Made by a program: the position numbers and the translations under genes. From IMG/VR virus record IMGVR_UViG_3300020034_000017, positions 1-57,341 of that record: a stretch of 57,341 nucleotides of DNA; one strand, written 5' to 3'. The DNA comes from a virus. The notes beneath the pieces were generated by a model. The model ran no database searches. It was not told the origin of the DNA and saw only the letters and a program-made list of their open reading frames with translations. Shown here in pieces: positions 6,858 to 57,285 of this stretch (positions are counted from its first letter, which is position 1; the number at the start of each line of letters is the position of its first letter).

Positions 6858-7223
6858 GTGGAAGAAAGCATTCTAAAGAGCATTCGAGCAATGCTTAACA
6901 TCGGCGCTGACGATGCGACTTTTGATGGTGAGATCATTCCACACATCAACGCGACATTTTCAACGTTGAGCCAGATTGGCGTCGGTAACGCGACACCCAT
7001 CACTAGTGATGAGCTGACGTGGTCAGATCTTGCTCTTCCGGATGAACAATTGAACCTCGTCAAGACTCTCATGCAGATGAAAGTGAAGCTTGGGTTTGAT
7101 CCTCCTGGCACCTCCTATCTCATCGACGTGATCAAAGAGATGATCAGGGAGCAAGAGTATCGACTTCAGACGTTCGCAGAGTGCACGGATACTTGGCCGA
7201 TCGAGGAGGTGATAACGCCATGA
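6858..7223 (+). CDS. Head-tail connector / adaptor-like protein
   Basis: 121 residues, GTG start after TAAGGAGGTG. An alpha-helical sequence beginning EESILKSIRAMLNIG, with IIPHINATFSTLSQIGVG in the middle and a C-terminal helical hairpin. It resembles the phage connector proteins (YqbG/gp6-like) that bind under the portal. Its location before terminase and portal, not after the capsid, is slightly unusual. The stop overlaps the next start (ATGA). Confidence 0.6.
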   Translation: MEESILKSIRAMLNIGADDATFDGEIIPHINATFSTLSQIGVGNATPITSDELTWSDLALPDEQLNLVKTLMQMKVKLGFDPPGTSYLIDVIKEMIREQEYRLQTFAECTDTWPIEEVITP

Positions 7224-8098: not shown

Positions 8099-8616
8099 TC
8101 ATCGACGAGAGCACCTACCTTGAGCACTATGGCCAGAAAGGCATGAAGTGGGGTGTTCGTAAGCAGAAACACCTAGTCAATAGGGCTAAAAGGGCTCAAA
8201 AAGCGGCCAACTTCAACAAAAGAATGGCCAAGGTGAACCCAAACGCCATAAACGACCAAGCTGCTAAAAGATCTCAGGTTAAAGCTGATAGGTTCAAGCG
8301 GCGTGCCCAAGGGAAAGAAACTGGCGCCGATAAAGCTATTCGAGCAGTACATGGAGCTGTTTACGTTAGTGCTGGTGCGCTTGTTGTTGCGTCAATAATG
8401 TCTAGTCATGGTAAGACACCGGTTAACCGGATTCCAAAGAAGCCTGTTTCTGGTGTAGAGGCGACTATTAGGCAAGCACATGCTGTAAAGCTTAGTTCTT
8501 TGACTAGGATGCATGCTGAAGGGAAGATGGATGCAGCTCAGTTCAAGAACTTCAGCGAAGCCCTTGCCGCTAGATACGACAGGAAAGTGGTTGACGCTTT
8601 GAAGGTGGTTCTGTAA
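8095..8616 (+). CDS. Tagged basic protein with membrane segment
   Basis: 173 residues starting MIIDESTYLEHYGQKGMKWG, so the tag occupies residues 9-22. A very basic helical region follows (NRAKRAQKAANFNKRMAK), then a hydrophobic segment (AVYVSAGALVVASIM) that could cross a membrane, and a C-terminal helical domain. ATG 8095 overlaps the stop of the preceding gene; a GTG-coded upstream start would only add three residues. Basic charge plus a membrane segment would fit a DNA-associated protein injected with the genome, which is inference only. Confidence 0.6.
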   Translation: MIIDESTYLEHYGQKGMKWGVRKQKHLVNRAKRAQKAANFNKRMAKVNPNAINDQAAKRSQVKADRFKRRAQGKETGADKAIRAVHGAVYVSAGALVVASIMSSHGKTPVNRIPKKPVSGVEATIRQAHAVKLSSLTRMHAEGKMDAAQFKNFSEALAARYDRKVVDALKVVL

Positions 8617-10647: not shown

Positions 10648-10983
10648 GTGATCATCGATGAGAGCACATACCTTGAGCATTTTGGTAAGAAGGGTATGAA
10701 GTGGGGCGTTCGTCAAACTCGCAAAGCCCAAGGCAGAGTAGATCAGTTCAAACGTGTTGCTGAGGGAAAAGGCACTGGAAGAGATCGTCGTGCAGTTAAG
10801 GCCCAAACGAACTTTAGGGATCGTAAAAAGAGCAAAGGTGGCATTGAAAACGCCGCCAAAAAGCGTTTGGACTCGTTGGCTAACTCTCAAGCGAAGATGG
10901 CAGTTGGAAAGAACAAAGTTTCCAACATGTTGATGAAGCTTGAAGGAATCAACATGAAAGATCTCGATTTCAGTCATTCCTAG
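10648..10983 (+). CDS. Tagged basic protein (LEHFG-GMKWG)
   Basis: 111 residues, GTG start after AAAGGAGGTAACAA. The first 13 residues (MIIDESTYLEHFG) are nearly identical to those of the protein at 8095, and GMKWGVR follows at 16-22. The rest is highly basic and helical (DRRAVKAQTNFRDRKKSKGG). It stands directly before the portal gene. I infer that the N-terminus is a sorting or docking signal and the basic body the cargo, possibly DNA-binding. Confidence 0.6.
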   Translation: MIIDESTYLEHFGKKGMKWGVRQTRKAQGRVDQFKRVAEGKGTGRDRRAVKAQTNFRDRKKSKGGIENAAKKRLDSLANSQAKMAVGKNKVSNMLMKLEGINMKDLDFSHS

Positions 10984-11021: not shown

Positions 11022-12332
11022 TTGGCCATCCGCGATAGAATGAAGAAAGCATGGAACGCGTTTCTTAATGTTGGACAGCAATCTACTGTCGAGTATGGCA
11101 CTAGCAGCTCATATTCTTCGAGTTCTCCGTCTCGGACCAGTAGGATGAGGAGTTACAACGATCGTTCCATTCTTACGTCGATCACGACTCGAATCGGTAT
11201 CGACGTCGCTGACGTTCTTATTCGTCACGTCAAACTCGACGAACAAGATCGATATTTGGAAGACGTGGATAGCAAACTCAACGCCTGCTTGACTTGGGAA
11301 GCCAATCTCGACCAATCACCACGAGCATTTCGTCAGGACATTGCACAGACCATTCTCGATCGAGGAGTTTGTGCTCTTGTTCCTGTCGACACTACGGTTG
11401 ACCCACAGACGCAAGAGATTTTCGATGTCATCACACTTCGTGTTGGCACAGTCAGTACTTGGTCAGCCAAACATATTCGTGTAGATGTTTGGAACGAGGC
11501 AAAGGGACGAAGGCAAGAGATCACTCTTGAAAAGCGATACGTGGCCATCATTGAGAATCCGCTTTTCGCTGTGATGAATGAGCACAACTCTACGTTCCAA
11601 CGTCTTTGTCGGAAGCTCACGCTGCTTGATGCTGTTGATGAGCAGGCAAGCTCTGGTAAGTTGGACATCATTATCCAGCTGCCATATGCCATCAAGACAG
11701 AGGCAAAGCGAGAAGCTGCAGAGATGCGTCGCACAGATATTGAAATGCAGCTGACGGGAAGTAAGTACGGAATTGCTTACGTCGATGGTACCGAAAAGAT
11801 CATCCAGCTGAATCGTCCTGCTGAGAACAACCTCATGAAGGCCATTGAGTTCCTTACAACCATGTTGTATGGACAGCTTGGTATCACAGAGGAAGTAATG
11901 AATGGTACAGCAGACGAAAAGACCATGCTCAATTATCAGAATCGAACAATCAAACCGATTGTTGATTCTATTGTCGAAAGCATGCAGAGATCGTTCCTTG
12001 GGCCTGCTGGAAAGCGGCGTAATGAACGTATTCTCTACTTCATCGACCCGTTCAAGCTGGTTACCATGAAGGATCTTGCCGAAATTGCTGACAAACTGAC
12101 TCGTAACGAGGTCATCACTTCTAATGAGATCAGAGGTGGCATCGGCATGAAGCCTTCGCCGGATCCAAAGGCAGATAAGCTTGGTAATCCCAACATGCCT
12201 GATGGTACAACCACGGTTAATGTTGGGACTTCTGCGGAAGATGACGCTGGTACCACAGCTGCTTTGGATGATCTAGATTCAACAATCGGCGACATTCTTA
12301 CTGAGTTTGGGGGTGAGCCGCCTAATGAATGA
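11022..12332 (+). CDS. Portal protein
   Basis: 436 residues, TTG start after AAAGGAGGTGATGA. The sequence follows the HK97-type phage_portal pattern: a disordered Ser-rich start, IGIDVADVLIRHVKLD, a strand-rich crown region, a long helical stem segment with FLTTMLYGQLGITEEVMNGTADEKTMLNY, and a RSFLGPAGKRRNERILYFIDPF segment. The C-terminus is acidic. Twelve copies should form the ring through which terminase pumps DNA. Position between terminase and protease/capsid is typical. Confidence 0.85.
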   Translation: MAIRDRMKKAWNAFLNVGQQSTVEYGTSSSYSSSSPSRTSRMRSYNDRSILTSITTRIGIDVADVLIRHVKLDEQDRYLEDVDSKLNACLTWEANLDQSPRAFRQDIAQTILDRGVCALVPVDTTVDPQTQEIFDVITLRVGTVSTWSAKHIRVDVWNEAKGRRQEITLEKRYVAIIENPLFAVMNEHNSTFQRLCRKLTLLDAVDEQASSGKLDIIIQLPYAIKTEAKREAAEMRRTDIEMQLTGSKYGIAYVDGTEKIIQLNRPAENNLMKAIEFLTTMLYGQLGITEEVMNGTADEKTMLNYQNRTIKPIVDSIVESMQRSFLGPAGKRRNERILYFIDPFKLVTMKDLAEIADKLTRNEVITSNEIRGGIGMKPSPDPKADKLGNPNMPDGTTTVNVGTSAEDDAGTTAALDDLDSTIGDILTEFGGEPPNE

Positions 12333-12861: not shown

Positions 12862-14883
12862 ATGAAATGCGATTTCAGCGGCTGGGCAACCAAAGCCGAC
12901 GTGAAATGCACTGACGGACGAACCATCAATCCTAATGCTTTCGAGCATCAGGACACGATGCAGGTTCCGCTCGTTTGGCAGCATGGGCACAAGGACGTTG
13001 AGAACGTTCTCGGTCATGTGCTTCTCGAGAACCGAGACGAGGGTGTGTACTGCTATGCCTTCTTCAACGATACACCGAAGGCGAAGCATGCCAAGCAGGC
13101 AGTAGAGCACAAGGATATCAATCAGATGTCCATCTGGGCCAACGATCTCATCGAGCGGTCCAAGAGGGTGATGCACGGAGCAATTCGTGAGGTCAGCCTC
13201 GTGCTCTCTGGCGCTAACCCTGGCGCAGTCATCAAGAACATTCAACTTCGTCATTCTGAAGATGATGAGCTGGAGACGCTTGAGGATGAGGCAATCATCA
13301 CCACCGGTTTGAAGCTCGAGCATGCGGAGCTTCCGAAGGATCTGGAAGATGATGCTGCTGCAGGCGACGCTGGTGACGATGACCTCGACGGTCGCGTTGC
13401 TACCGAGGTTGAGCGTCAGCTTCAGCTTGCGCACGCAGCCGAAGATCCTACCATTCAGGACGTTTTCGAGTCCATGAGTGATGATCAGAAGGATGTGGTG
13501 TATTTCATGGTCGGCACGGCCCTCGAGTCGACCTCGGCAGAGCACAGCAACCTCGGTGACGAGGCCAACGACGACAAGAAAGGCAAAGAATCAATGGGAC
13601 ACAACGTGTTCGAGAAAGATGCTAAGGGGGGTACTGGTAGCAAGAACACCCTTGCTCATTCCGACCTTGAAGCCATCAAGGCTGAGGCAAAGCGGGGTGG
13701 TTCGCTCAAGCACGCTGTCGAGGCTTACGCCGAGGAGCACCTTGAGCATGGTATCCAGGACATCGACACGTTGTTCCCGGACGCCAAGGCCATTTCCAAC
13801 ACTCCCGAGATGCTCAGCCGTCGTGTTGAGTGGGTTGGCAAGCTGATGGGTGGCATCACCAAGCGCCCGTTTGCCCGGATCAAGACCCTCTCGGCGGACA
13901 TCACGGTGCCTGAGGCTCGCGCCAAGGGTTACATTACCGGCAGCCTGAAGAAGGAAGAGTTCTTCAAGGTTCTGAAGCGGGTCACTGAGCCCACCACCGT
14001 GTACAAGAAGCAGAAGCTCGATCGCGATGACATGATCGACATCACTGACTTCGACGTGGTGGCCTGGCTCAAGGCTGAGATGCGTCAGATGCTCGACGAG
14101 GAAATCGCCCGTGCGATCCTCCTTGGTGATGGCCGCGCCGGCGATCACGAGGACAAGATCAACGAAGAGAAGATCCGCCCAATCGTCTCTGATCACGAGC
14201 TGTACACCACCACAGTCAACGTCAATATCAACGATGCAAGCTCCAACATGAGCGAGGTTTCGGACAAGATCGCGCTGAGCAGGAAGCACCTGCGTGGCTC
14301 CGGTCTGCCGACCATGTTCACCACGGAGACTTACATCGCGATGTTCCTCACCCAGCGTGACTCGCTTGGTCGCCGGCTCTACACGAGCCTTGATCAGCTG
14401 GCCACGGAGCTTCGGGTGTCGGAGATCGTGGCTGTTGAGGTCATGGAGGAGTATGAGGACATCGTCGCGGTTCTTGTGAACCCGGCTGACTACGCGGTTG
14501 GCTCCAACGCCGGCGGCGAGGTCTCGATGTTTGACGACTTCGACATCGACTACAACGAGTACAAGTATCTCATCGAGGGTCGGTGCTCTGGTGCGCTCAC
14601 CAAGCTGAAGTCGGCTCTCGTGGTCAAGAAGGTTGCCGGTACGGACGTGCTCGTTGAGCCGGCCTCGCCGACCTTCGATCCGGAGTCCGGTGAAGTCACG
14701 ATCGTCAACACCACTGGTGTTGTGTACCGCAACCTCGACACGGACGCTGTGATCGACAACGCTGGCTCGCCGTACGAGCTGGCCGAGGGTGAGACCCTGA
14801 ACGTCCACGCAACGCCCGCCAGCGGCAAGTACTTCGCCGACAGCACCGTCGATGACTGGAGCTTCACCCGTCCCGAAGCGTGA
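12862..14883 (+). CDS. Prohead protease fused to major capsid protein
   Basis: 673 residues in one frame. Residues 1-130 form a prohead protease of the S78-like herpesvirus-assemblin fold: WQHGH carries His41 and EVSLVLSGANPGA carries Ser112. Residues about 130-245 are acidic and helical, like a scaffolding delta domain. The HK97-fold capsid follows, with FARIKTLSADI, RGSGLPTMFTTE, and IVAVEVMEEYEDI segments. An internal ATG at 13594 (MGHNVFEKD, residue 245) could start a separate 429-residue capsid protein. The last 75 residues look like an added beta-sandwich domain. Self-cleavage during maturation is expected. Confidence 0.85.
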   Translation: MKCDFSGWATKADVKCTDGRTINPNAFEHQDTMQVPLVWQHGHKDVENVLGHVLLENRDEGVYCYAFFNDTPKAKHAKQAVEHKDINQMSIWANDLIERSKRVMHGAIREVSLVLSGANPGAVIKNIQLRHSEDDELETLEDEAIITTGLKLEHAELPKDLEDDAAAGDAGDDDLDGRVATEVERQLQLAHAAEDPTIQDVFESMSDDQKDVVYFMVGTALESTSAEHSNLGDEANDDKKGKESMGHNVFEKDAKGGTGSKNTLAHSDLEAIKAEAKRGGSLKHAVEAYAEEHLEHGIQDIDTLFPDAKAISNTPEMLSRRVEWVGKLMGGITKRPFARIKTLSADITVPEARAKGYITGSLKKEEFFKVLKRVTEPTTVYKKQKLDRDDMIDITDFDVVAWLKAEMRQMLDEEIARAILLGDGRAGDHEDKINEEKIRPIVSDHELYTTTVNVNINDASSNMSEVSDKIALSRKHLRGSGLPTMFTTETYIAMFLTQRDSLGRRLYTSLDQLATELRVSEIVAVEVMEEYEDIVAVLVNPADYAVGSNAGGEVSMFDDFDIDYNEYKYLIEGRCSGALTKLKSALVVKKVAGTDVLVEPASPTFDPESGEVTIVNTTGVVYRNLDTDAVIDNAGSPYELAEGETLNVHATPASGKYFADSTVDDWSFTRPEA

Positions 14884-17816: not shown

Positions 17817-18197
17817 ATGTTTGCCATCGAGCACAAGGGAAACTTCAAACGAACTAGGGAATGGCTAGAAAGCCTTCATAACCGGGAGTTGTTCAGAGAC
17901 CTGGAACGGTGGGGCCAGATGGGTGTCGATGCTCTCAATGCAGCAACACCAATAGACTCTGGAGTGAGCGCTGGTTCTTGGCAGTATCGGGTTATTCGTA
18001 ACCACAGATGGCCAGGAATCGAATGGTATAATACTAATCCAGCCGGCGTGTCTAACGTGCCTGTTGTGATCCTCATTCAGTACGGTCATGCAACTAGAAA
18101 TGGCGGTTATATTCAGGGTAGAGACTTTATCAACCCTGCAATGAAGCCGGTGTTTGAGACAATCCAACGAGAGCTATGGAAGAAGGTGAGATCATGA
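17817..18197 (+). CDS. Tail completion / HK97 gp10-like protein
   Basis: 126 residues. The sequence has a helix (WLESLHNRELFRDLERWGQMGVDALNAATPIDSG), then WQYRVIRNHRWPGIEWYN and a strand ending VVILIQYGHATRNGGYIQGRDFINPAM. The 'TPIDSG...W' and 'QYG..TRNGGYI.G.DFI.PA' blocks are typical of HK97 gp10-like neck proteins. The gene sits after the tail tube rather than before it. ATG 17817 follows the previous stop directly; it overlaps the tape measure start by 4 bases. Confidence 0.7.
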   Translation: MFAIEHKGNFKRTREWLESLHNRELFRDLERWGQMGVDALNAATPIDSGVSAGSWQYRVIRNHRWPGIEWYNTNPAGVSNVPVVILIQYGHATRNGGYIQGRDFINPAMKPVFETIQRELWKKVRS

Positions 18198-21100
18198 GCA
18201 GTGTAGACGATAGCATTGTCGAAATGAAGTTTGACAACGTCAAGTTCCAACAGAAGATGGAAGAGACGATTCGAAGCCTCGACAAGCTTCGCGTTAGCCT
18301 TGATTTCGCTGCTGGTCAGAAGAGCATGGGCGATCTCTCCAAGGCAGCCAAGGATTTCAATGTAAATCCTATGGGGACCAGCCTTGAAGATGTCAGCCGA
18401 AAGTTCCTGGCGCTCTCTACCGTGGCTCTCACCGTTCTTTCGCAGATCACTCAAGCAGCGTTCACATCCGGTTTGTCAGTTGTCAAAGCGTTCACATTGG
18501 CTCCGATTACTTCTGGCTTCCAAGAGTTTGAAACGAACATGAACTCGATCCAGACGATCTTGGCTAACACCAAATCTGACGGGTCGAACCTGCGAGACGT
18601 TAACGCGGCTCTTGATGAGATGAATCATTATTCGGACAAGACCATCTACAACTTCTCGCAGATGGCTAGAAACGTCGGTACCTTCACGGCCGCTGGTGTG
18701 AATCTTCAGGATTCAACCAACGCGATCAAGGGCATTGCCAACCTGGCTGCCATTTCTGGTTCAAGTGCAGATCAGGCTTCTACAGCCATGTACCAGCTTT
18801 CTCAGGCCCTTGCTGCAGGCAAGGTGAGCCTCATGGACTGGAACTCGGTGGTCAACGCCGGTATGGGTGGTGAGGTCTTCAAGAAGGCTTTGTTCGAGAC
18901 AGGTAAAGCGATGGGTACCATCACAGATGTTCCTCTTGGTGCCTCGTTTGAGGAGTGGGAGAAGAAGGGTGGTACCTTCCGTGAGCAGATGCAGAAGGGT
19001 TGGATCACCGCCGACGTTCTCAAGACGTCGTTGGGTGCCTTCTCTGGCGAGCTTGATGCATCAGCACTCTCCGCACTTGGCTTCAGTGATGCTGCTGCCC
19101 AGGAGATGGTTGACCTAGGTAAGCTCGGTGTTGCTGCCGCGACTGAGGTCAAGACCTTGACTCAGCTTATCGGCACTGTCAAAGAGGCTGTTGGTTCAGG
19201 TTGGTCAATGACCTTCCGTACGGTTATCGGCGACTTTGCAGAGTCAAAGAAGCTCTTCACCGAGATCAACAATGCCATTGGTGGCTTTGTTTCCAAGTCG
19301 GCAGACGCTCGTAACCAGCTTCTGGCTGAGTGGAAGTTCATGGGTGGGCGTACACTGCTCATCGAAGGACTTAAGAACGCTTTCGGGGCGTTGGGTAACG
19401 TTTTCACAGCGGTCAAGGACGCGTTCCGAAACATTTTCCCCAAGACCACTTCGGCTGAGTTGTTCAGCATGACTGAAAGCTTTGCAAATTTCACTGAGAG
19501 GCTTCGGGAGCTGACTGAGAACTGGATGCCAAAGATCATGCAGGGTTTTCAGGGTTTCTTCTCGGTTATTTCAATTGGCTGGGAGATCATCAAGGGTCTT
19601 GCTCGTGTTATCAAGGCAATCTTTGGAGAAATTGTGGATGCTCTTGGTGGCCCAAGTGCAGGACTCATCTCAAAGGTTGCTGGTGGTCTTAGCGACCTTC
19701 GAAAGACGCTTGTTGTTGATGGAGGCATAAAGGATTTCTTCGATACACTCATTGAAGGTATTAGAAAGCCAGCCGAATTCATCGATAAGCTCGTCGAAGG
19801 AATCGGTGGTCTCATGGATGCCCTTCGTGGCGGCGGTGAGACAGACGCTCTTGACGGTGTAAACGATCGTCTGGGACGTGTAGGTGAAATGGTCAAGTCA
19901 ATTGGTGATGCATGGGACTGGTTGGTCGAGAAGACCGAAGGTGTGCGTCAAGCAATTGGCGATCTTTGGAATTACATCACTCAGTTCTTCCGTGAACTTG
20001 GTGACAGCATGAAGTCCGAGATGAATCAAAATGACTTCGAGGGTGCGTTAGATATTTTCAACGTAGCTTTCCTTGGTGGTATCGCTTTGATGATCCGGAA
20101 TTTCTTCAAGAACGGGTTCGGTAACCTGGGCGGCAACATCATTGAGAAGATCAATGGTATTCTCACCCAGACAACCGGTGTTCTTAAGGCTATGCAGACA
20201 GAGTTGAAGGCTAAGGCTCTAATGGAGATTGCCATCGCGATGGGAGTTTTAACTCTCGCGCTTGTTGGTCTTTCTATGATCAACTCTGCCGATCTCACCA
20301 AAGCGTTGGTAGCTATGTCTGTTGGGTTTGCTCAGCTGATTGGCGCTATGGTAGCCATTGAGAAACTGACATCCATGACCGGTGCATTCAGATTCAGCGT
20401 CGTCGCGGCTGGAATGATCCTTCTGGCAGGAGCTATGGTTATTCTGGCTGCAGCTATGAAGATCATGGCCACGATGAGTTGGAGTGAGCTGGCCAAGGGG
20501 CTTATCGGTGTCGCCGGTGGTTTGGCAATCATGATTACAGGGATCAACCTGTTGACCAGCGACACTTCTGGACTCATCAGAGCCGGTATTTCTATGATCG
20601 CTATTGCGGTAGCTCTTCGTATTCTTGCCAATGCTATGCAAGCGTTTGCAACCATGGGTTGGGAAGAGCTTGCCAAGGGGCTTATCGGCGTTGCCGGTGG
20701 TCTCACAGCGTTGGTTACCGCAATGAATTTCATGCCGGTTGAAGGTATGGTTCAAGCTGGTATTAGCATCATCGCCATCGCGGTTGGTATGCGTATTCTT
20801 GCCAACGCTATGCAAGCGTTTGCAACTATGTCGTGGACAGATATCGCCAAGGGACTAACTGGCGTAGCACTTGGGCTCGGTGCCATCGTTCTAATCACGA
20901 ACACGATGCCCGCTGGCGGAATGATCGCCATTGGTGTCGGACTTATCGCGGTTAGCGCCGCTTTGCTCATCATGGCTCAGGCTGTGAAATCCATGTCCGA
21001 TTTGGACCTTGGGGAGATGGTAAAGGGTATTGGTGGTCTTGCTGCCATGATGCTCATTCTGGTAGTCGCGACAAACGCGATGACGGGGGCTATGGCTGGC

Positions 21101-23065
21101 GCGGCTGCTATGATCATTGTCGCTGGCGCAGTGTTGATCATGTCAAAGGTTCTTCAAGAAATCGGCAGGATGGACATCAAGGAACTGATCATTGGTTTGG
21201 TTGGTCTTGCTGCCGTCTTGGCCCTTCTTGGGGGCGCGGCATATCTTCTGACGCCAGTAATTCCGGCTATGCTTGGTCTAGGTATCGCCATCGGTTTGCT
21301 TGGTGCAGGCTTCGCTTTGTTCGGAGCAGGCGCATATTTGACTATCAAAGCACTCGAGCTTCTAAGCAAGGTCGGTGTTGACGCGATGAAGGTTCTCATC
21401 GAGATGATTGCCATCTTCGTTGCTCGTGCTCCTCTGATTGGCATCGCGATTGCAAGAGTCGTCGTCGCGGCCGCCACAGATCTAGCAGAAGCTGCACCAA
21501 CTCTCATCAAGGCATTGAAGGTCGTCCTTCTTGAGCTGCTCGAAGCAGTAATCGAGTTGGCTCCGAAGATTGGCGAGGCTTTCGGCGCAATCCTTACGGT
21601 GATGTTGGGGCTTCTAGAGGAGTTTGCACCACAGATCATTGAGGCTGGGTTCAATCTTCTCATGGACTTCATGCGTGGAATCCGTGATAACACTCAAGAG
21701 CTAGTGACTGTTGGTGCTGAGATCTTGGTCAATCTCATGCAAGGTCTAGCTGACAAAGCTTCAGATCTTGTCAATGCGGCCGTGGATCTTCTGCAGTCGT
21801 TCCTTGGCGTGATCGGTGAACGAGCTGGCGATGTTGTAGCTGCTGGAATCAAACTGTTGGTTGATTTTCTTGCTGGCGTTGTTCAGAACATCAGTGACGT
21901 TATCACCACAGCTACGGACATTGTCATCGAATTCGTGACCGGCATTGTTCAGAACTTGAGTAAGATCATTTCTGCTGGTGCAAATCTGCTTGTGAAGTTT
22001 CTGTTTGGCGTCACCAGAGACATTCTCAAGGTTGCTGACGCGGTTACCACGATTGTTGTTGCGTTTGTGACAAGAATGGGTGAGAATGCAAACAAGATCA
22101 TCACTGCTGGTGTTGACGCTTTGATCGACTTCCTGTCTGGTATTACAGACAACGCAATCAAGGTTGTCGAGGCTGTGAGCACGATGGTTGCTCAATTCAT
22201 CTATGGCGTTGGTGCAAACGCTAGTAAGATTGTCACAGCGGGTACAGACGCGCTGATCGACTTCCTTAGTGGTGTTCGTAGTAACTCGACCAGGGCAGTC
22301 AATGCAATCGCCACTACAGGGTTGCATGTCATGAACGCCATTGGTAATGCAATCGTGTTCACTGTCGACAAAGCGGCACAGATCCTCTTGGACTTCCTCA
22401 GGAAGCTTAGGACAGCTATCGACAGGCATGCCGAAGAGATTGGCCAAGCAGGCAGACAACTTGCCGGCGCTATCATCAACGGTATCACTGGTGGCCTTGG
22501 TGCCCGAGCAGGCGACGTCGTCAATAAGATCAGAGGCATTGCCGGCGATGCTGTTGGTGGAGCGATGGACTTCCTCGGCATTGGTGGACCGTCCAAGGTC
22601 TTCTGTGAGATTGGTAAGGCTACCATGATGGGTTGGGCTGGTGGTATCGAGTCGAAAGGCAAAGTGCCTGAAAAGAAAGCCCAGATGGTTGCCAGTAATG
22701 TGGTTGACATCTTCCAGAAGTCATTGGGGAAGGCTACCGCCTCGCTCCCTGCTCTGGATGACCTCAATCCGGTGATCACACCAGTCTTGGACCTGTCCAA
22801 AGTACGAAAAGAAGCAACAAACCTGGACAAGATGATGGATGTAGCATCTATCATTCCAGATGTCTCGATTGAACGAGCAAGGGTTCTAGCCTTTGAGTCA
22901 AACGTTCAAAATGGCAGTAGTGATGAGACGCCTGAACCAAATGGACCAGTGGAGAACACATTCATCCAGAACAACTATTCGCCACAGGCACTTTCCACTG
23001 CGGACATTTACCGTCAAACCAAGAGCCAATTCGCTTTGGCAAAGGAGGAACTGGGTGTAGCATGA
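18194..23065 (+). CDS. Tape measure protein
   Basis: 1623 residues. The N-terminal region has the phage tape_meas domain (FETNMNSIQTILANTKSDG, YSDKTIYNFSQMARNVGTFTAAG). A central region of many hydrophobic helices shows internal repeats, for example LAKGLIGVAGGL three times between about residues 760 and 880. A C-terminal set of repeats of the form (A)G-x-x-L-(L/V)-DFL-x-G(V/I) lies at about 1190-1380. The protein sets tail length; at about 0.15 nm per residue this predicts a tail near 240 nm. ATG 18194 (RBS GAAGGTGAG) is preferred to ATG 18176. Confidence 0.9.
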   Translation: MSSVDDSIVEMKFDNVKFQQKMEETIRSLDKLRVSLDFAAGQKSMGDLSKAAKDFNVNPMGTSLEDVSRKFLALSTVALTVLSQITQAAFTSGLSVVKAFTLAPITSGFQEFETNMNSIQTILANTKSDGSNLRDVNAALDEMNHYSDKTIYNFSQMARNVGTFTAAGVNLQDSTNAIKGIANLAAISGSSADQASTAMYQLSQALAAGKVSLMDWNSVVNAGMGGEVFKKALFETGKAMGTITDVPLGASFEEWEKKGGTFREQMQKGWITADVLKTSLGAFSGELDASALSALGFSDAAAQEMVDLGKLGVAAATEVKTLTQLIGTVKEAVGSGWSMTFRTVIGDFAESKKLFTEINNAIGGFVSKSADARNQLLAEWKFMGGRTLLIEGLKNAFGALGNVFTAVKDAFRNIFPKTTSAELFSMTESFANFTERLRELTENWMPKIMQGFQGFFSVISIGWEIIKGLARVIKAIFGEIVDALGGPSAGLISKVAGGLSDLRKTLVVDGGIKDFFDTLIEGIRKPAEFIDKLVEGIGGLMDALRGGGETDALDGVNDRLGRVGEMVKSIGDAWDWLVEKTEGVRQAIGDLWNYITQFFRELGDSMKSEMNQNDFEGALDIFNVAFLGGIALMIRNFFKNGFGNLGGNIIEKINGILTQTTGVLKAMQTELKAKALMEIAIAMGVLTLALVGLSMINSADLTKALVAMSVGFAQLIGAMVAIEKLTSMTGAFRFSVVAAGMILLAGAMVILAAAMKIMATMSWSELAKGLIGVAGGLAIMITGINLLTSDTSGLIRAGISMIAIAVALRILANAMQAFATMGWEELAKGLIGVAGGLTALVTAMNFMPVEGMVQAGISIIAIAVGMRILANAMQAFATMSWTDIAKGLTGVALGLGAIVLITNTMPAGGMIAIGVGLIAVSAALLIMAQAVKSMSDLDLGEMVKGIGGLAAMMLILVVATNAMTGAMAGAAAMIIVAGAVLIMSKVLQEIGRMDIKELIIGLVGLAAVLALLGGAAYLLTPVIPAMLGLGIAIGLLGAGFALFGAGAYLTIKALELLSKVGVDAMKVLIEMIAIFVARAPLIGIAIARVVVAAATDLAEAAPTLIKALKVVLLELLEAVIELAPKIGEAFGAILTVMLGLLEEFAPQIIEAGFNLLMDFMRGIRDNTQELVTVGAEILVNLMQGLADKASDLVNAAVDLLQSFLGVIGERAGDVVAAGIKLLVDFLAGVVQNISDVITTATDIVIEFVTGIVQNLSKIISAGANLLVKFLFGVTRDILKVADAVTTIVVAFVTRMGENANKIITAGVDALIDFLSGITDNAIKVVEAVSTMVAQFIYGVGANASKIVTAGTDALIDFLSGVRSNSTRAVNAIATTGLHVMNAIGNAIVFTVDKAAQILLDFLRKLRTAIDRHAEEIGQAGRQLAGAIINGITGGLGARAGDVVNKIRGIAGDAVGGAMDFLGIGGPSKVFCEIGKATMMGWAGGIESKGKVPEKKAQMVASNVVDIFQKSLGKATASLPALDDLNPVITPVLDLSKVRKEATNLDKMMDVASIIPDVSIERARVLAFESNVQNGSSDETPEPNGPVENTFIQNNYSPQALSTADIYRQTKSQFALAKEELGVA

Positions 23066-25387: not shown

Positions 25388-25434
25388 ACGCAGACTATAC
25401 GTCGTGTATAACGGAGACTACAGAAAGGATGGAA

Positions 25435-26019: not shown

Positions 26020-26049
26020 GCACGCGCAAATTCTACATGTTGTATTATG
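26020..26049 (+). promoter_or_regulatory. Repeated-type promoter P1
   Basis: CACGC-GCAAATTC-TACATG-TTG-TATTAT-GG. This is the first of about ten sites sharing a CACGCA block, a TACATG block and a TRTAAT/TATTAT hexamer. The ATG inside the -10 box is not a start codon. Confidence 0.65.
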
Positions 26050-26079
26050 GAACAAGACCGTCAATCAAAGGAGCCAACA

Positions 26080-26296: not shown

Positions 26297-26326
26297 CACG
26301 CAAGTTCTACACGCTCTATTATGAGG
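26297..26326 (+). promoter_or_regulatory. Repeated-type promoter P2
   Basis: CACGCA-AGTTC-TACACG-CTC-TATTAT-GAGG, immediately after terminator T1 and 28 bases before the next start codon. Confidence 0.65.
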
Positions 26327-26354
26327 AATACCCCTCTACAACCAAGGAGCAATC

Positions 26355-26559: not shown

Positions 26560-26587
26560 CTCGCATCTTTTACATGGTTTGTTATGG
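26560..26587 (+). promoter_or_regulatory. Repeated-type promoter P3
   Basis: CTCGCA-TCTTT-TACATG-GTT-TGTTAT-GG after terminator T2. The first block departs by one base from CACGCA. Confidence 0.6.
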
Positions 26588-26609
26588 AACCACTACAAAG
26601 GAGATTCTA

Positions 26610-26765: not shown

Positions 26766-26795
26766 CACGCAGAAAATACATGCACTGTAATGAGA
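26766..26795 (+). promoter_or_regulatory. Repeated-type promoter P4
   Basis: CACGCA-GAAAA-TACATG-CAC-TGTAAT-GAGA, abutting terminator T3. Confidence 0.7.
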
Positions 26796-26796
26796 A

Positions 26797-26831
26797 GAAG
26801 ATCTGTCTGTATAGACAGCGCTTCTCTTTTT
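26797..26831 (+). terminator. Leader hairpin with T-run (possible attenuator)
   Basis: Directly after P4: GAAG-AT-CTGTCT, loop GTAT, AGACAG-CG-CTTC, then TCTTTTT. It lies between the promoter and the gene at 26852 and looks like an intrinsic terminator in the leader, so transcription of the gene may be attenuated or a roughly 35-base RNA released. Confidence 0.5.
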
Positions 26832-27094: not shown

Positions 27095-27122
27095 CGCAGG
27101 ATCTACATCCACTGTAATGAGA
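27093..27122 (+). promoter_or_regulatory. Repeated-type promoter P5
   Basis: ACGCA-GGATC-TACATC-CAC-TGTAAT-GAGA, beginning at the stop codon of the preceding gene with no terminator before it. It leads into a 150-base structured leader. Confidence 0.65.
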
Positions 27123-27125
27123 AGA

Positions 27126-29685: not shown

Positions 29686-29820
29686 GTGGATACGAATCAG
29701 CAAAGGGAAGCATTACTAAAGGTGTACCCGCACTGGACCGACAAGGTGAAGAAGATGTCTGAGGCTCAGGTCACAGCCATTTTCCTACGGCTTCAATCTC
29801 AAGGAAAGTTGGGTAAATGA
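29686..29820 (+). CDS. Small hypothetical protein (44 aa)
   Basis: 44 residues, GTG start after AAAGGAGGTTGG. One amphipathic two-helix sequence (REALLKVYPHWTDKVKKMSEAQVTAIFLRLQ). The stop overlaps the next start (ATGA). A short helix-turn-helix-like DNA contact is possible but not provable. Confidence 0.55.
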   Translation: MDTNQQREALLKVYPHWTDKVKKMSEAQVTAIFLRLQSQGKLGK

Positions 29821-38844: not shown

Positions 38845-38874
38845 CACGCAGAAAAAACATGCAGTATAATGAGA
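38844..38874 (+). promoter_or_regulatory. Repeated-type promoter P6
   Basis: CACGCA-GAAAAA-ACATG-CAG-TATAAT-GAGA. Best match to a TATAAT -10 among the set. It drives the gene at 38954 and possibly the structured region after it. Confidence 0.75.
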
Positions 38875-38953
38875 AGGCGTCGATGTACTAACACGATAGT
38901 ACGTCACCAGACACCATCTCATCTTATTTTTGTCTCTCACGAAAGGGAGCCGA

Positions 38954-45925: not shown

Positions 45926-45956
45926 GACCGCAGTAAATACACGCGCTATAATGAGG
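45926..45956 (+). promoter_or_regulatory. Repeated-type promoter P7
   Basis: CCGCA-GTAAA-TACACG-CGC-TATAAT-GAGG, 9 bases after the preceding gene. It drives a unit with only a 12-codon frame. Confidence 0.65.
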
Positions 45957-45970
45957 AAAGGAGGAACCAC

Positions 45971-46060: not shown

Positions 46061-46090
46061 GCTCGCAGTTCCTACATGGTGTATTATGGA
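46061..46090 (+). promoter_or_regulatory. Repeated-type promoter P8
   Basis: CTCGCA-GTTCC-TACATG-GTG-TATTAT-GG, following terminator T4 and 22 bases before the next start codon. Confidence 0.65.
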
Positions 46091-46111
46091 GACCACTATG
46101 AAAGGACTACA

Positions 46112-46303: not shown

Positions 46304-46336
46304 AAAAGTGAGAGTGCTAACAAGCATTCTCATTTT
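46304..46336 (+). terminator. Intrinsic terminator T5
   Basis: AAAAGTGAGAGTGC, loop TAACAA, GCATTCTCATTTT: the same stem as T1 and T3, 20 kb away. Confidence 0.8.
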
Positions 46337-46338
46337 CG

Positions 46339-46368
46339 CACGCAGAGCGTACATGCTTTGTAATGAGA
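46339..46368 (+). promoter_or_regulatory. Repeated-type promoter P9
   Basis: CACGCA-GAGCG-TACATG-CTT-TGTAAT-GAGA after terminator T5. A long leader of about 115 bases precedes the gene at 46486. Confidence 0.7.
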
Positions 46369-46485
46369 AGAGGAGACCACCCCGATAGGAACCCAATGGA
46401 CAAGCGCCAATCAATGCAAATTGAGAAGGCTCGTAACAAGATCCTGGATGGTAACATCTACTCTATTTTTTCTCTAGGAGGAAAC

Positions 46486-46701
46486 ATGGTAATTATCAAG
46501 GTTAGTTTCACCAATCTTCACTTGATTACCGCATTAAATGCTGGGGTGATCCCGAACATCGATGAAGAGAACCCTATGTTTTTGATCATGGAGAGCGGAG
46601 AGGTAAATCGCATCATCTCGTCAGAGGAGCTACATGAGATTTCTACTACGAAGAAGTTGAATTTGAGAACGGTAGAGATTTTCTACGCATCTTTTACATA
46701 G
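46486..46701 (+). CDS. Hypothetical protein (71 aa)
   Basis: 71 residues from ATG 46486 after CTAGGAGGAAAC. Two earlier in-frame starts exist (46363, 46396), of which 46396 could add 30 residues, but 46486 has much the best ribosome site. The protein has a strand-helix-strand pattern (VIIKVSFTNLHLITALNAGVIP). The next promoter overlaps its stop. No family recognised. Confidence 0.5.
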   Translation: MVIIKVSFTNLHLITALNAGVIPNIDEENPMFLIMESGEVNRIISSEELHEISTTKKLNLRTVEIFYASFT

Positions 46702-46713
46702 GTTGTAATGGAG
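46684..46713 (+). promoter_or_regulatory. Repeated-type promoter P10
   Basis: ACGCA-TCTTT-TACATA-GGT-TGTAAT-GGAG, overlapping the end of the coding sequence before it. Confidence 0.6.
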
Positions 46714-46831
46714 ACTAACCCACAGAAACGACTTGTCGAGACGAAGACTCTAATCCAGTCAGAAGCGTGGCACGGATCGAATCCCGGCATTGGTAAAACA
46801 GTTGATTATCTCCAAATTGAAAAGGAGTTCG

Positions 46832-53279: not shown

Positions 53280-53307
53280 GGCACGCAAAACATGTATTGT
53301 AATGAGG
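53280..53307 (+). promoter_or_regulatory. Repeated-type promoter P11
   Basis: CACGCA-AA-ACATG-TAT-TGTAAT-GAGG. The spacing between the first block and the -10-like hexamer is 4 bases shorter than in the others. A short AGAGT...ATTCT hairpin and T-rich run follow at 53309-53350 before the next start. Confidence 0.6.
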
Positions 53308-53359
53308 GAGAGTCGCAAATTGATTCTCTTCACACCCTTTCTCTTTTTTCGGAGGCTTG

Positions 53360-53662
53360 ATGGTTTGTTCGAGAGCAGAAACAGTCTATCAAGCTGACCT
53401 AATCAAGAGAATAGAGCGCCTTCTTCCTGATTGTATGGTGTTCAAGATGGATCCAGACCAGTATCAGGGAATTCCAGACCTTCTTGTTTTGTTTGAGGAC
53501 AAGTGGGCTGCGCTTGAGGTGAAAGTGAGTGCTTCAGCAGAAGTTCAACCAAATCAAGAGTGGTATATTGACAAGTTTGCGGAGATGTCGTTTGCGGCAT
53601 TTATCTATCCTGCGGTTGAGGATCAAGTACTTGAAGAGTTGGTAACTAGGCTAGCTTCGTAG
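53360..53662 (+). CDS. VRR-NUC/resolvase-like PD-(D/E)XK nuclease
   Basis: 100 residues after CGGAGGCTTG. The core GIPDLLVLFEDKWAALEVKVS carries Asp40, Glu53 and Lys55 in the PD-(D/E)XK spacing, with an upstream Glu in the first helix (AETVYQADLIKRIE). This is the size and order of phage VRR-NUC or Holliday-junction-resolvase-type nucleases, which process branched DNA before packaging. P11 drives it together with the next genes. Confidence 0.7.
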   Translation: MVCSRAETVYQADLIKRIERLLPDCMVFKMDPDQYQGIPDLLVLFEDKWAALEVKVSASAEVQPNQEWYIDKFAEMSFAAFIYPAVEDQVLEELVTRLAS

Positions 53663-53671
53663 AGGAGAGTC

Positions 53672-54232
53672 ATGGATTTTCACTCCCACCCAGAACTGGC
53701 TGGCAGACATGCTTTCCTAGGGCCAAGTAAGTCTAGCTGGTTGCGGTACAATGATCAGAAACTAGAAGCTCGTTTTTATGCTGCTCAAGCAGCTAGAATA
53801 GGAAGCGACAAACACGAGCTTGCTAGAAATGCAATTCGCCTAGGCATCAAGATAGACAGAAGATCCAATCCCTCATTGGCTGCCTATGTTGCTGATGCTC
53901 TTGCCTACAAGATGCGTTGCGAACAACCCCTCTACTACTCAGACAACTGCTTTGGGACAGCTGACGCTATTTCCTTCCGTAGAGGGAAACTCAGAATTCA
54001 CGATCTCAAAACTGGGATCACGAAAACATCATTTGAGCAGCTCGAGGTGTATGCCGCACTCTTCTGTCTAGAGTATGGCATCGATCCGTTCGACATTGAA
54101 ATCGAGCTTCGCATTTATCAAAGAGAGGACATGGATGTTGTACAACCTATTCCGGAGAAAATTCTCCAAATCATGGAAACCATCGTTGCCTTTGATCGTC
54201 AAATCAACATCATAAAGGAGGCTAACTGGTGA
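53672..54232 (+). CDS. RecB/Cas4-like PD-(D/E)XK exonuclease
   Basis: 186 residues after AGAGGAGAGTC. GSDKHELAR gives the conserved His48, GTADAISF carries Asp98 and LRIHDLKTG carries Asp111 and Lys113: the RecB-type nuclease order. No cysteine cluster for an iron-sulphur centre is visible, unlike classical Cas4. It may process ends during recombination-dependent replication. It overlaps the polymerase-like gene by 4 bases. Confidence 0.7.
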   Translation: MDFHSHPELAGRHAFLGPSKSSWLRYNDQKLEARFYAAQAARIGSDKHELARNAIRLGIKIDRRSNPSLAAYVADALAYKMRCEQPLYYSDNCFGTADAISFRRGKLRIHDLKTGITKTSFEQLEVYAALFCLEYGIDPFDIEIELRIYQREDMDVVQPIPEKILQIMETIVAFDRQINIIKEANW

Positions 54233-56982
54233 TCATCGATGAAGAAGAACATCTTGCTCACTATGGTATCCTCCGCCGTTCAGGCCGTTGGCCTTGGGGT
54301 AGTGGTGAGGGTAGTGGCACACAGTCCGGCAGGAACAAGAAGTTCCTCGATTTTGTTGAGAGCATGAAGAAGCAGGGTCTTTCGGAACAAGAAATTGCTT
54401 CCGGACAAGGGATCTCGGTTACTCAAATCAGAGCAGCCAAGACCTATGCCAAAAATGAGCAAAAGCAACAGCAGATTGCTATGGCTCAGAGACTCAAAGA
54501 CAAGGGTTTGTCCAATCCAGCCATTGCTGAGAGAATGAATCTTGCTGGAGAATCCTCGGTTCGGGCACTCCTCGAGCCAGGAGCCAAGGACAAAGCTGAC
54601 ATTCTGATCAGTGTGTCTAACATGCTGAAAGAGCACGTCGATGAGAAGACATACGTGGACATCGGTAGTGGTACCGAAACACATCTCAAGATCAGCAAAG
54701 AGAGACTTGCTGCAGCAGTCTTTGTTCTGGTCGAACAGGGATATGAAGTTCACGTTGTGCCTGTTCCTCAGATTGGTACTGGGTTCAACACAAAGACCAA
54801 GGTTCTTGTGCCTCCTGGTGTCTCTCAAAAGGACGCTTTCATCCATCGGTATGAGATCAAGCAGATCTCGACGTTCACTGAGGATGGTGGTCGACACTTC
54901 GCCAAGCAGCATCCCATCGTCTCGATTCATCCCGACCGTCTTGCGGTTCGGTATGCTGAGGATGGTGGCGGTAATGCTGATGGTGTGATCTACCTCAGGC
55001 CCGGTGTCAAAGAACTTTCCATGGGTAAGGCAAACTACGCTCAAGTTCGAATTCAGGTTGGTAAGGACAAGTACCTCAAGGGTATGGCGATGTACAAGGA
55101 TGATCTTCCTCCTGGTACAGACATCGTGTTCAACACCAACAAGTCTAAGGCCGAGTATCCGGACAAACTTGACACGTTGAAGAAACTGTCTAAGGACAAG
55201 GATCTTCCTTTTGAGTCTGTTACTCGTCCCGTTCTTCTCGATGCTCACTCACCCAAAGAAAGGGTTGAGTCTGCAATCCACAAGGTCAACGAAGAAGGCG
55301 ATTGGAACAACTGGTCGGATAGTTTGGCTAGTCAAGTTCTGGTAAAACAAAGTCCTTCTTTGATCAAACAACAGCTGGACATTAGTCATGATCGTCGTCA
55401 AAAAGACTTCGACGACATCATGAAACTTACCAACCCTGCCGTAAAGAAGAAGCTTTTAGAAGACCTTGCTGATTCTGCTGATTCTGCAGCGGTACATCTA
55501 AAAGCAGCCGCTCTTCCAAGGCAGTCGTGGAAAGTAATTCTTCCCATTGAATCGTTGAAGCCTGGAGAGATCTATGCCCCAACGTACAACAATGGCGAAA
55601 AGGTAGTTCTAATTCGGTACCCGCATGGTGGTACGTTCGAGATTCCTGAAGTGACTGTGAACAATAGACATGGTCCCTCTAGGAAGATGTTGCGGGATAC
55701 TGAGGATGCCATTGGCATCCATCCTGAGGTTGCTCAGAGGTTGTCTGGTGCAGACTTTGATGGTGATACGGTTCTTGTGATTCCCAACCCTCAGGGTAGG
55801 GTCACTAGTACACCAAAATTGGCTCAACTCAAAGGCTTTGATCCTCAGAAAGACTATGCACCTTATGATGGTATGCGTACCATTGATGGTGGTGTGTACA
55901 ACGCTAAGACTCGGAAGGTCGACTATGGGGACAAGCAACCCATGCGTAGTCCTAAAGAGATGGAGATGGGAAAGGTTTCCAATCTAATCACAGACATGAC
56001 TATTCGTGGTGCCCCTCATGATGAGATTGCTCGTGCAGTCAAACACTCCATGGTTGTGGTCGATGCAGAGAAGCATCATCTAGACTTCAGACGGTCTGCC
56101 ATTGACAACGGGATTCCTAAACTTAGGGCTACCTACCAGAGCGAGCATAAGGACAACAAGAGGCCAGGTGCCTCCACCCTCATCTCGAGACAGGGTAGTA
56201 CTGTTAGAATCCCTGAGCTTAAGGGTCAACCGAACTTTCCTCAAGGTGCACCGATTGATAGGGCTACAGGTAAGAAGCTTCAGATCCCTACAGGTAGGAC
56301 CAAGCGAGATAGGGCAGGGCAGGTAAGCGTTACTACTAGGGAGTACAAGAAGCTAGACCTTACGGATGATGCACACACATTGTCCTCTGGTACTAGGCCT
56401 GAATCTCTTTATGCTGATTACTCTAACAAGCAGAAGGCTCTTGCCAACCGCGCTAGAGTAGAAGCGTTTAAGACCCCCCCCGTCCAATGGAGTCACTCTG
56501 CCAAGAACGTTCATAAAGCAGAAGTAGCCTCCCTCGATGCTAAATTGGCCCTCGCCAAGAAGAACCGCACCCTTGAACGCCATGCACAGGTCATCGCTAA
56601 TGCTCAGATCAAGGCTAAGCGTGATGCTAATCCCAATCTTGATGGAGATTCCCTCAAGAAGATCAAGTTTCAAGCCCTTGCTGATGCACGTACCCGCACC
56701 AAAGCGGATCAGACAAAGATTGAGATCACACCTAAAGAATGGGATGCTATTCAAGCAGGCGCCATCAGTAACAACAAGCTAACCCAGCTCCTAGCTAAGG
56801 CTGACATGGAGAAGGTTAGAGAGCTTGCTACCCCCCGTCCCAAGGTGTTGATGAGTACATCTAAGACAGCCCAGGCCAAACAGCTAGCGTCATTGGGTTA
56901 CACTAGGGCCGAGATTGCAAGTCGGCTTGGTGTATCAATCAAGACGTTGGATCGAGCTATCAACGAAGAGGAAGGTGGGTGA
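54229..56982 (+). CDS. Two-barrel (YonO/crAss-like) RNA polymerase-like protein with N-terminal virion-type tag
   Basis: 917 residues, GTG start after AAAGGAGGCTAACTG. The start MIIDEEEHLAHYG matches the tagged proteins at 8095 and 10648, followed by the variant ILRRSGRWPWGSG. A helix-turn-helix region follows (about 45-110). The catalytic double-psi barrel is marked by ILPIESLKPGEIYAPTYNNGE, IRYPHGGTFEIP and SGADFDGDTV, with Asp509, Asp511 and Asp513 as metal ligands. A C-terminal helix-turn-helix (YTRAEIASRLGVSIKTLDR) ends it. Such enzymes transcribe phage DNA; the tag suggests virion packaging, which is inferred. Confidence 0.75.
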   Translation: MIIDEEEHLAHYGILRRSGRWPWGSGEGSGTQSGRNKKFLDFVESMKKQGLSEQEIASGQGISVTQIRAAKTYAKNEQKQQQIAMAQRLKDKGLSNPAIAERMNLAGESSVRALLEPGAKDKADILISVSNMLKEHVDEKTYVDIGSGTETHLKISKERLAAAVFVLVEQGYEVHVVPVPQIGTGFNTKTKVLVPPGVSQKDAFIHRYEIKQISTFTEDGGRHFAKQHPIVSIHPDRLAVRYAEDGGGNADGVIYLRPGVKELSMGKANYAQVRIQVGKDKYLKGMAMYKDDLPPGTDIVFNTNKSKAEYPDKLDTLKKLSKDKDLPFESVTRPVLLDAHSPKERVESAIHKVNEEGDWNNWSDSLASQVLVKQSPSLIKQQLDISHDRRQKDFDDIMKLTNPAVKKKLLEDLADSADSAAVHLKAAALPRQSWKVILPIESLKPGEIYAPTYNNGEKVVLIRYPHGGTFEIPEVTVNNRHGPSRKMLRDTEDAIGIHPEVAQRLSGADFDGDTVLVIPNPQGRVTSTPKLAQLKGFDPQKDYAPYDGMRTIDGGVYNAKTRKVDYGDKQPMRSPKEMEMGKVSNLITDMTIRGAPHDEIARAVKHSMVVVDAEKHHLDFRRSAIDNGIPKLRATYQSEHKDNKRPGASTLISRQGSTVRIPELKGQPNFPQGAPIDRATGKKLQIPTGRTKRDRAGQVSVTTREYKKLDLTDDAHTLSSGTRPESLYADYSNKQKALANRARVEAFKTPPVQWSHSAKNVHKAEVASLDAKLALAKKNRTLERHAQVIANAQIKAKRDANPNLDGDSLKKIKFQALADARTRTKADQTKIEITPKEWDAIQAGAISNNKLTQLLAKADMEKVRELATPRPKVLMSTSKTAQAKQLASLGYTRAEIASRLGVSIKTLDRAINEEEGG

Positions 56983-56991: not shown

Positions 56992-57285
56992 ATGATAGAG
57001 CACATGCTCACAACAGATGACAACCCCCACGATCCTTTCGTTGATTGGGATGCCTGGTATGCTTTTGATGAGCGTGCTGGGTACCACACCACCGCCTACC
57101 TGGGTAGAGTAGTTGTAACTTCAGATGAATTGTCTGAGACCGATCAGCAACTTGCAATTGAGAGAGCAATCGATGAGATTGTGGAGATGAACGTACTCGG
57201 TATCTACAAGAAGGTGTCGAGTAAAGCGGGAGTTGGATCTGAGAAACCAGAGGAAGCTCAGATGATCGAGGAAACTTCTGCTTAG
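56992..57285 (+). CDS. Hypothetical protein following the RNA polymerase-like gene
   Basis: 97 residues. The start DDNPHDPFVDWDAWYAFDERAGYHTTAYLGRVV is a pattern common in phage proteins next to structural or polymerase genes, possibly a small virion protein. Acidic C-terminus. RBS is weak (GAAGGTGGGTGATGAATC). It is 9 bases after the polymerase-like gene, so in the same operon. Confidence 0.55.
   Translation: MIEHMLTTDDNPHDPFVDWDAWYAFDERAGYHTTAYLGRVVVTSDELSETDQQLAIERAIDEIVEMNVLGIYKKVSSKAGVGSEKPEEAQMIEETSA

Follow-up and report, generated by a model that had tools for sequence, protein, structure and literature searches.

RNA polymerases that travel in the virion are known from N4-like, phiKZ-like and crAss-like phages and from phages of Thermus. 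The two-barrel polymerase gp66 of the crAss-like phage phi14:2 is delivered with the virion, and in phage P23-45 the presence of a promoter motif goes hand in hand with that of the virion polymerase (PMC10770324). Phage T4 has capsid-targeting sequences (on IPI-III and Alt), which are short N-terminal peptides borne by otherwise unrelated proteins, some of which act on the new host (PMC9026906). Here we describe a gene at positions 54229-56982 of a viral DNA of 57,341 nucleotides (IMG/VR record IMGVR_UViG_3300020034_000017, the whole of which is referred to as the window), and we consider it likely, with a probability of about 0.7, that its product is a virion two-barrel DNA-dependent RNA polymerase that would be delivered through the head by means of an N-terminal tag and would read a promoter class of its own.

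The polymerase and its predicted fold

The reading frame is open from a GTG start and encodes 917 amino acids, with the sequence ADFDGDTV at residues 508-515 exactly as an earlier note on this DNA had given it. By sequence the protein is a member of an already known annotation family, PHROG 4291 (PHROG_4291 profile match E=0, residues 3-914), whose database labels are 'helix-turn-helix DNA-binding protein', 'RNA-dependent RNA polymerase' or 'hypothetical'. Homologues are present in 250 of 50,697 phage records, mostly from Gram-positive hosts; 249 of the 250 are near full-length and all are less than 60% identical to the window protein, the closest relative (71% identity) being encoded on an IMG/VR contig. 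Among isolates the identity is roughly 45-53% in Streptomyces, Arthrobacter and Gordonia phages, 41% in Faecalibacterium and 34-39% in Lactococcus phages. Because the nearest isolate relatives are the Streptomyces, Arthrobacter and Gordonia phages, the host of the window phage is probably actinobacterial, in keeping with the actinobacterial siphovirus proposed earlier, but the polymerase family is not confined to Actinobacteria and spans Lactococcus, Faecalibacterium and Clostridia prophages as well. A sequence search of the PDB with the polymerase returned no match, and the listed tblastn matches at E<=1e-5 include no Bacillus SPbeta (YonO) record, the profiles of the two families not having been compared directly.

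Eight residues of the presumed core (K284, K305, R463, P465, H466, D509, D511 and D513) are invariant in 58 homologues. These include the DxDGD signature of the double-psi beta-barrel RNA polymerase superfamily, here D509-F-D511-G-D513, and the basic residues K284 and K305, which we assign provisionally to the partner barrel. Pfam family PF05183 (RdRP) matches residues 500-617 below its threshold. An AlphaFold2 (AF2) model built from the 58 homologues has a mean predicted local distance difference test score (pLDDT) of 81 and a predicted template-modelling (TM) score (pTM) of 0.73; residues 1-33 are disordered (pLDDT <50), the core consists of beta strands, and helices at residues 32-114 and 877-915 resemble helix-turn-helix (HTH) units. 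The two double-psi barrels that the earlier note anticipated are present in this model in the arrangement seen in polymerases. Comparison with the PDB using Foldseek places QDE-1 best (E 1.6e-9, probability 1.00) and P74-26 gp62 second (E 2.4e-6, probability 1.00), followed by plant RDR2 and then, slightly under significance, by bacterial beta' subunits; the matches among viral models are other phage 'RNA-dependent RNA polymerases' and one P23-45 protein. Whole-chain TM scores of these matches are about 0.3 and the barrel boundaries are approximate, and the fold assignment therefore relies on the core, the DFDGD loop, the K284/K305/RxPH residues and the C-terminal HTH_23 domain. On the strength of sequence and model together, the protein is predicted to be a single-chain two-barrel polymerase with fused HTH domains.

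The N-terminal tag and probable virion association

The disordered N-terminus contains a tag in which residues H11, G13, R16, S18, G19, R20, G24 and S25 are invariant in the 58 homologues, and almost all of the actinobacterial, Lactococcus and clostridial phage homologues conform to the pattern L-x-H-Y-G-[IT]-[LP]-R-[RKH]-S-G-R-Y-P-W-G-S-G. A related tag, L-x-H-[YHF]-G-x-K-G-M-K-W-G-[VQ]-R, is present in three window proteins encoded around the large terminase subunit (TerL) and portal genes, all of which match Pfam DUF7211; family-wide, the polymerase and DUF7211 tags share only L-x-H-[YHF]-G and a downstream W-G. The earlier proposal of a tag common to the polymerase and to head-module proteins is thereby upheld and extended by a third tagged protein (7181-8098). 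The shared motif is real, and the 13 matching N-terminal residues claimed for it were an overstatement, in that the polymerase N-terminus MIIDEEEHLAHYG is identical at 9 of 13 positions to MIIDESTYLEHYG (start at 8095 in the frame 8086-8616) and at 8 of 13 to MIIDESTYLEHFG (10648-10983). The idea of a genome-specific 13-residue tag was rejected by permutation, the mean identity of polymerases to the head tags of their own genomes being 3.98 of 13 and to those of other genomes 4.01; the window, at 9/13, is the exception, and this close identity is peculiar to its genome.

Alignment of the polymerase and DUF7211 tag profiles gives a local score of 28.2 (probability 94.9%), with 60 column shuffles reaching at most 15.1. 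Sequence extends for 8 kb or more downstream of the polymerase in 60 loci; in 44 of these the strict pattern detects a DUF7211-type protein there, in most of the remaining 16 the profile does so, and in a control in which 17,409 open reading frames (ORFs) were each shuffled five times there was none. A DUF7211 query among phage isolates recovers the same genera as the polymerase with near-equal record counts (Gordonia 55/55, Streptomyces 54/54). We found no paper in the open-access literature that names DUF7211. Domains fused to the tag among 71 tagged proteins are papain-fold glutamine deamidase (5), LigT/2'-5' RNA ligase (3), DUF5662 (3), portal (1) and amidase/endolysin (1), and such a combination of head components with enzymes would be expected of an address tag.

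There are several further variations on the tag. DUF6883 is also fused to DUF7211 tags (loci L083-L171), and Rhodococcus phage ReqiPepy6 (L083:10645-19935) encodes eight proteins with the HYG[VI]KGMKWG tag around its terminase gene, seven of them tagged near the N-terminus. In three clostridial prophages (L135, L151 and L159) inserted residues separate HYG from SGRYP, giving the variant HYGVGKLDGAPGRGSGRYPLGSG (HEGVSILDGSPGRGSGRYPLGSG in L135) and suggesting that the tag has two separable halves. At L020:2900-3200 the tag is separated from the polymerase by a frameshift, possibly an assembly error. Finally, on one bacterial contig (L139:9893-12598, a single case) the polymerase frame is open and the tag has decayed (SLIDNGMPKCSDLCTGVSS), and no gene for TerL, portal or capsid could be recognised around it.

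Outside support for packaging comes from Lactococcus phage 1706 (EU081845), in which the full-length orthologue orf75, with the same tag (HYGTKRHSGRYPWGSG), is labelled 'structural protein', as is the doubly DUF7211-tagged orf7. The record contains 11 such 'structural' labels which, with the portal, the capsid and two tail proteins, make 15. The 2008 paper on phage 1706 reportedly identified 15 structural proteins by liquid chromatography-tandem mass spectrometry (LC-MS/MS). The capsid packaging suggested earlier thus gains support from a relative, and by extension the polymerase is probably packaged in the virion of the window phage; by analogy, the tag is probably a capsid-targeting peptide.

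A 29-bp promoter-like element and its genome context

Motif discovery in phage 1706 yielded CTTTTACATACACTATAGTAGAAAG and a direct-repeat search in the window yielded GCACGCAGAAAAAACATGCAGTATAATGAGAAG, and the two align without gaps. Both belong to a conserved 29-bp element, TCGCAnrwwwWACAyrscyTATAATGAGA, with sharp edges in its logo and three blocks (TCGCA, WACA and TATAATGAGA). The CACGCA, TACATG and TRTAAT sites of the earlier note are real and occur far over chance, although not as three separate motifs; they are all parts of this one promoter-like element, which seems to have gone unrecognised. A position weight matrix (PWM) made from ten sites and then refined finds 175 coding-strand and 3 opposite-strand sites in 23 relatives of 34-59% GC, and 153 and 0, respectively, in 80 genome-contig loci that are mostly clostridial prophages. 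The matrix has 333 matches, against 4-46 (median about 10) when its columns are shuffled (12 matrices), and none in phiC31 or sk1, both of which are without the polymerase. Some of the repeated 30-mers returned by motif discovery in the relatives were set aside as terminators rather than promoters.

The element occurs across Lactococcus, Rhodococcus, Streptomyces and Clostridia phages. At the position of a -35 box nothing is conserved among the 23 relatives, and sigma-70-like host promoters are in no excess over chance in the early region. In the clostridial prophages the hexamer is often TTTTAT, with TCGC, ACA and ATGAAG kept, and judged by its sequence this hexamer is unlike a sigma-70 box. 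None of the 175 sites lies in the TerL-to-tape-measure module, which makes up 30% of the bases; in the annotated relatives the elements start directly past the tail or lysis genes. In the 80 genome-contig loci there is usually one site about 0.9 kb 5' of the polymerase, ahead of the nuclease gene; over all loci, 121 of 162 have one at such a position, 857-1251 nt from the polymerase (median 926). Some elements in the window are followed after 20-50 nt by a probable ribosome-binding site and a start codon. Dedicated promoter-like elements of the kind expected for a virion polymerase are thus found before early genes, and the window enzyme would presumably use them.

Linkage of the element to the polymerase was examined by a blind scan of 2.9 million viral contigs with the pattern GCANNNWWWACAYNNNYTATAATGAGAMS, which matched at least 120 stretches. 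Among the matches listed, 27 of the 31 contigs of at least 35 kb encode the polymerase, compared with a base rate of about 0.5% in phage records; the remaining four belong to the same clade, each without one or more of its core genes, at least three appearing to be truncated at the position of the operon. The element is tied firmly to the clade and, we infer, to the polymerase. Short hairpins lie directly 3' of some elements in the window, at 26803-26818 (followed by a T-rich run) and at about 53300-53335 within the polymerase operon leader, and may be attenuators. Near-identical terminator-like hairpins (AGTGAGAGTGC..ACAAGCATTCTCATTTT) are located at 26265-26294 and 46307-46336, just 5' of elements.

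The PHROG 4291 homologues are full-length and syntenic, the gene order VRR-exonuclease-RNAP-phrog_4303 being conserved among relatives (Table 1), and the polymerase gene is penultimate at the right genome end in the cultured relatives and likewise in the window, 359 bp from its end. All carriers form one phage clade with a common TerL, portal, exonuclease and more. Among the window ORFs, one matches the Thoeris-inhibitor family Tad3 of Pfam (E=2.4e-31) and one matches LigT phosphoesterase (E=1.3e-5); three DUF6353 proteins (27270-28016, 29817-30698 and one more) and a PF23803 tail-chaperone-like protein (28322-28945) are encoded outside the TerL-to-tape-measure module.

Table 1. Coordinates of the polymerase gene, its predicted domains, the tagged and neighbouring genes, and the promoter-like elements in the window.
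Feature	Position	Strand	Basis
Two-barrel single-chain RNA polymerase, 917 aa, PHROG 4291	54229..56982	+	PHROG, homologues, AF2/Foldseek
N-terminal tag, residues 9-26 (LAHYGILRRSGRWPWGSG), predicted disordered	54253..54306	+	invariant residues, pLDDT, profile match
Two HTH-like units, residues 32-114	54322..54570	+	AF2 helices; weak HTH matches
First barrel region, approx. residues 262-350, invariant KGMA (K284), FN..K (K305)	55012..55278	+	invariant columns, model strands; edges approximate
Second barrel region, approx. residues 447-520, RxPH and catalytic loop	55567..55788	+	invariant R463, P465, H466; PF05183
Catalytic motif ADFDGDTV, residues 508-515	55750..55773	+	sequence; ADFDGD invariant in 58 homologues
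C-terminal HTH, residues 877-916	56857..56976	+	PF13384 HTH_23 E=1.9e-6, over its cut-off; three model helices
VRR-NUC-like nuclease, first in polymerase operon	53357..53662	+	PF08774 E=6e-3 (under cut-off), phrog_93 E=8e-12; syntenic in prophages
Cas4/RecB-like exonuclease, 4-nt overlap with polymerase start	53672..54232	+	phrog_3953 E=9e-69; syntenic
Small conserved protein 3' of polymerase, phrog_4303	56992..57285	+	E=1.5e-35; syntenic
DUF7211 head-region protein, two tags, likely counterpart of 1706 orf7	7181..8098	+	PF23847 E=6.8e-21, two stretches
DUF7211 protein 5' of TerL; MIIDESTYLEHYGQKGMKWGVR from 8095	8086..8616	+	PF23847 E=2e-9
Terminase large subunit	8652..10391	+	PF20441 E=5.5e-38
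DUF7211-type protein between TerL and portal, MIIDESTYLEHFGKKGMKWGVR	10648..10983	+	phrog_17496 E=8.8e-13; Pfam DUF7211
Portal protein	11022..12332	+	PF04860 E=2.9e-13
Fused prohead protease / major capsid protein	12862..14883	+	phrog_3270 E=4.5e-232; 'major capsid and protease fusion protein' in annotated relatives
Tape measure protein, end of element-free late module	18176..23065	+	phrog_4372 E=0
Promoter-like element (weak)	25390..25418	+	PWM
Promoter-like element	26026..26054	+	PWM
Promoter-like element	26300..26328	+	PWM
Promoter-like element	26563..26591	+	PWM
Promoter-like element (strongest)	26769..26797	+	PWM
Promoter-like element	27096..27124	+	PWM
Promoter-like element	38848..38876	+	PWM, direct-repeat search
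Promoter-like element	45930..45958	+	PWM, direct-repeat search
Promoter-like element	46065..46093	+	PWM
Promoter-like element	46342..46370	+	PWM, direct-repeat search
Promoter-like element	46687..46715	+	PWM, gapless alignment with 1706 motif
Promoter-like element 5' of nuclease-exonuclease-polymerase operon	53281..53309	+	PWM match

Proposed role, alternatives and relation to known systems

We propose that the tag would draw the polymerase into the prohead, much as the capsid-targeting sequences of the T4 internal proteins do, and that the enzyme would enter the cell together with the phage DNA. There it would bind the 29-bp elements, probably by means of the fused HTH domains, and would transcribe early and middle genes from them without a host sigma factor. 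Because the same element precedes the nuclease-exonuclease-polymerase operon, the enzyme would also be renewed for the next virions. The element-free genes from TerL to the tape measure would be transcribed otherwise, either by the host polymerase or by read-through. A broader proposition, which we regard as evenly poised, is that the H-x-G...W-G peptide is a general capsid address in a large clade of Actinobacteria and Firmicutes siphoviruses and prophages, loading the polymerase as well as enzyme cargos such as glutamine deamidase and 2H-phosphoesterase, and that the polymerase then starts infection from its own cross-phyla promoter class.

Several observations weigh against a tag-delivered polymerase that reads the element. 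Pfam DUF7211 gives no match to the polymerase at E<1 (the head proteins reach 6.8e-21), the two tags diverge past HYG (ILRRSGRYPWGSG vs VKGMKWGVR), and H-x-G served as the anchor of the tag alignments, which builds in part of their agreement. The virion evidence for orf75 is a GenBank record label, and it comes from phage 1706 rather than the window phage; moreover, the untagged early-region 1706 proteins orf62 and orf71 also carry the label 'structural protein', and contaminants are therefore possible in that list. With regard to the element, its TATAAT resembles a host -10 box, its linkage to the polymerase is no proof of recognition given that the carriers are one clade, and a weak factor could escape the top 25 families listed for the window, among which there is no sigma factor or other RNA polymerase.

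There are four alternatives. The tag may be a docking peptide for a protease, the portal or a membrane, with the polymerase carried in another way, for instance with the tail; the virion polymerase of P23-45 does enter fused to the tape measure protein (PMC10770324), but tagged proteins are concentrated near TerL and portal, in one case the tag is joined to a portal, and tape measure and polymerase are separate proteins in the window, such that we think this rather unlikely. It is unlikely, too, that the enzyme is a non-virion RNA polymerase acting on the same element after infection, with a tag that is a leftover or serves for docking on the portal, terminase or the like. Such enzymes exist in YonO and P23-45 gp64, two-barrel proteins for which a virion role is not described (PMC5467207, PMC10770324), a P23-45 protein is among the nearest viral models, and the gene lies in a nuclease operon outside the head module. 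The structural label of 1706 orf75 speaks for packaging, however, as does L139, where the tag has decayed with the head genes missing and the polymerase frame is nonetheless open; furthermore, since the polymerase operon itself carries the element, the enzyme would have to precede its own synthesis unless a copy were packaged, a problem that packaging solves.

That host RNA polymerase, with a phage or host factor, reads the element and the two-barrel protein has some other role seems to us improbable. TATAAT would make a good host -10 box, and other conserved proteins are common to the whole clade; yet the -35 region is not conserved, the prophage hexamer is often TTTTAT while the other blocks persist, the same element recurs in phages of Lactococcus, Rhodococcus, Streptomyces and Clostridia, and the listed window families include no sigma factor. 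The PHROG and RefSeq names, the sub-threshold PF05183 match and QDE-1 as closest solved fold would suit an RNA-dependent RNA polymerase acting on RNA templates, but QDE-1 has been solved with DNA templates too (PDB entries), so the fold leaves the template unsettled, and the fused HTH domains, the linkage to a DNA element and the derivation of the name from remote homology make this reading highly improbable.

If the virion polymerase reading is true, a virion RNA polymerase with a defined promoter is present in hundreds of cultured Arthrobacter, Gordonia, Streptomyces, Rhodococcus and Lactococcus phages and in gut Clostridia prophages; in all of these the gene goes under the names 'HTH protein' or 'RNA-dependent RNA polymerase'. 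The pair of promoter and polymerase would be small, testable and apparently sigma-independent, and could explain how transcription starts in the phages that bear it; the tag is a candidate peptide address for loading proteins into phage heads. In the open-access papers that we found, the promoter element and tag of the PHROG 4291/1706 family are undescribed: the paper on the Arthrobacter relatives (clusters AM and AU) leaves RNA polymerase and promoters unmentioned, and that on Streptomyces phage Scarif names the gene solely as an RNA-dependent RNA polymerase.

Of the known systems, 1706 orf75 and the other PHROG 4291 relatives are full-length members of the same family as the window polymerase, with the same tag and neighbours, and have so far been known as annotations only. 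The Thermus phages P23-45 and P74-26, with gp96 as virion polymerase fused to the tape measure and gp64 as non-virion polymerase, resemble it in the single-chain two-barrel fold, the siphovirus context and the dedicated promoter motifs, and virion delivery, the route of gp96, is what we propose here; in contrast, the window polymerase stands apart from the tape measure protein, carries fused HTH domains and a tag related to that of head proteins, and has a different putative promoter, and the top 25 window families listed include no second polymerase. YonO of Bacillus phage SPbeta is likewise a single-chain two-barrel DNA-dependent RNA polymerase of about 100 kDa from a phage of a Gram-positive host, but no virion role is described for it and its promoter was left undetermined (PMC5467207). 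Phage phi14:2 has different hosts, and its gp66 is not among the listed Foldseek matches; the window protein has 917 residues, a short N-terminal tag and HTH domains. QDE-1 and the eukaryotic RNAi polymerases (PF05183) provide the closest solved fold and differ in being cellular, in functioning in RNAi and in lying under the Pfam cut-off by sequence. T4 packages an ADP-ribosyltransferase rather than a polymerase, and the likeness of the tag to its capsid-targeting sequences is one of description, with no sequence relation claimed. Virion two-barrel polymerases as such are thus already known; judged by the open-access papers that we found, none of which describes them, what is new is the class of promoter, the fusion to HTH domains and the tag peptide.

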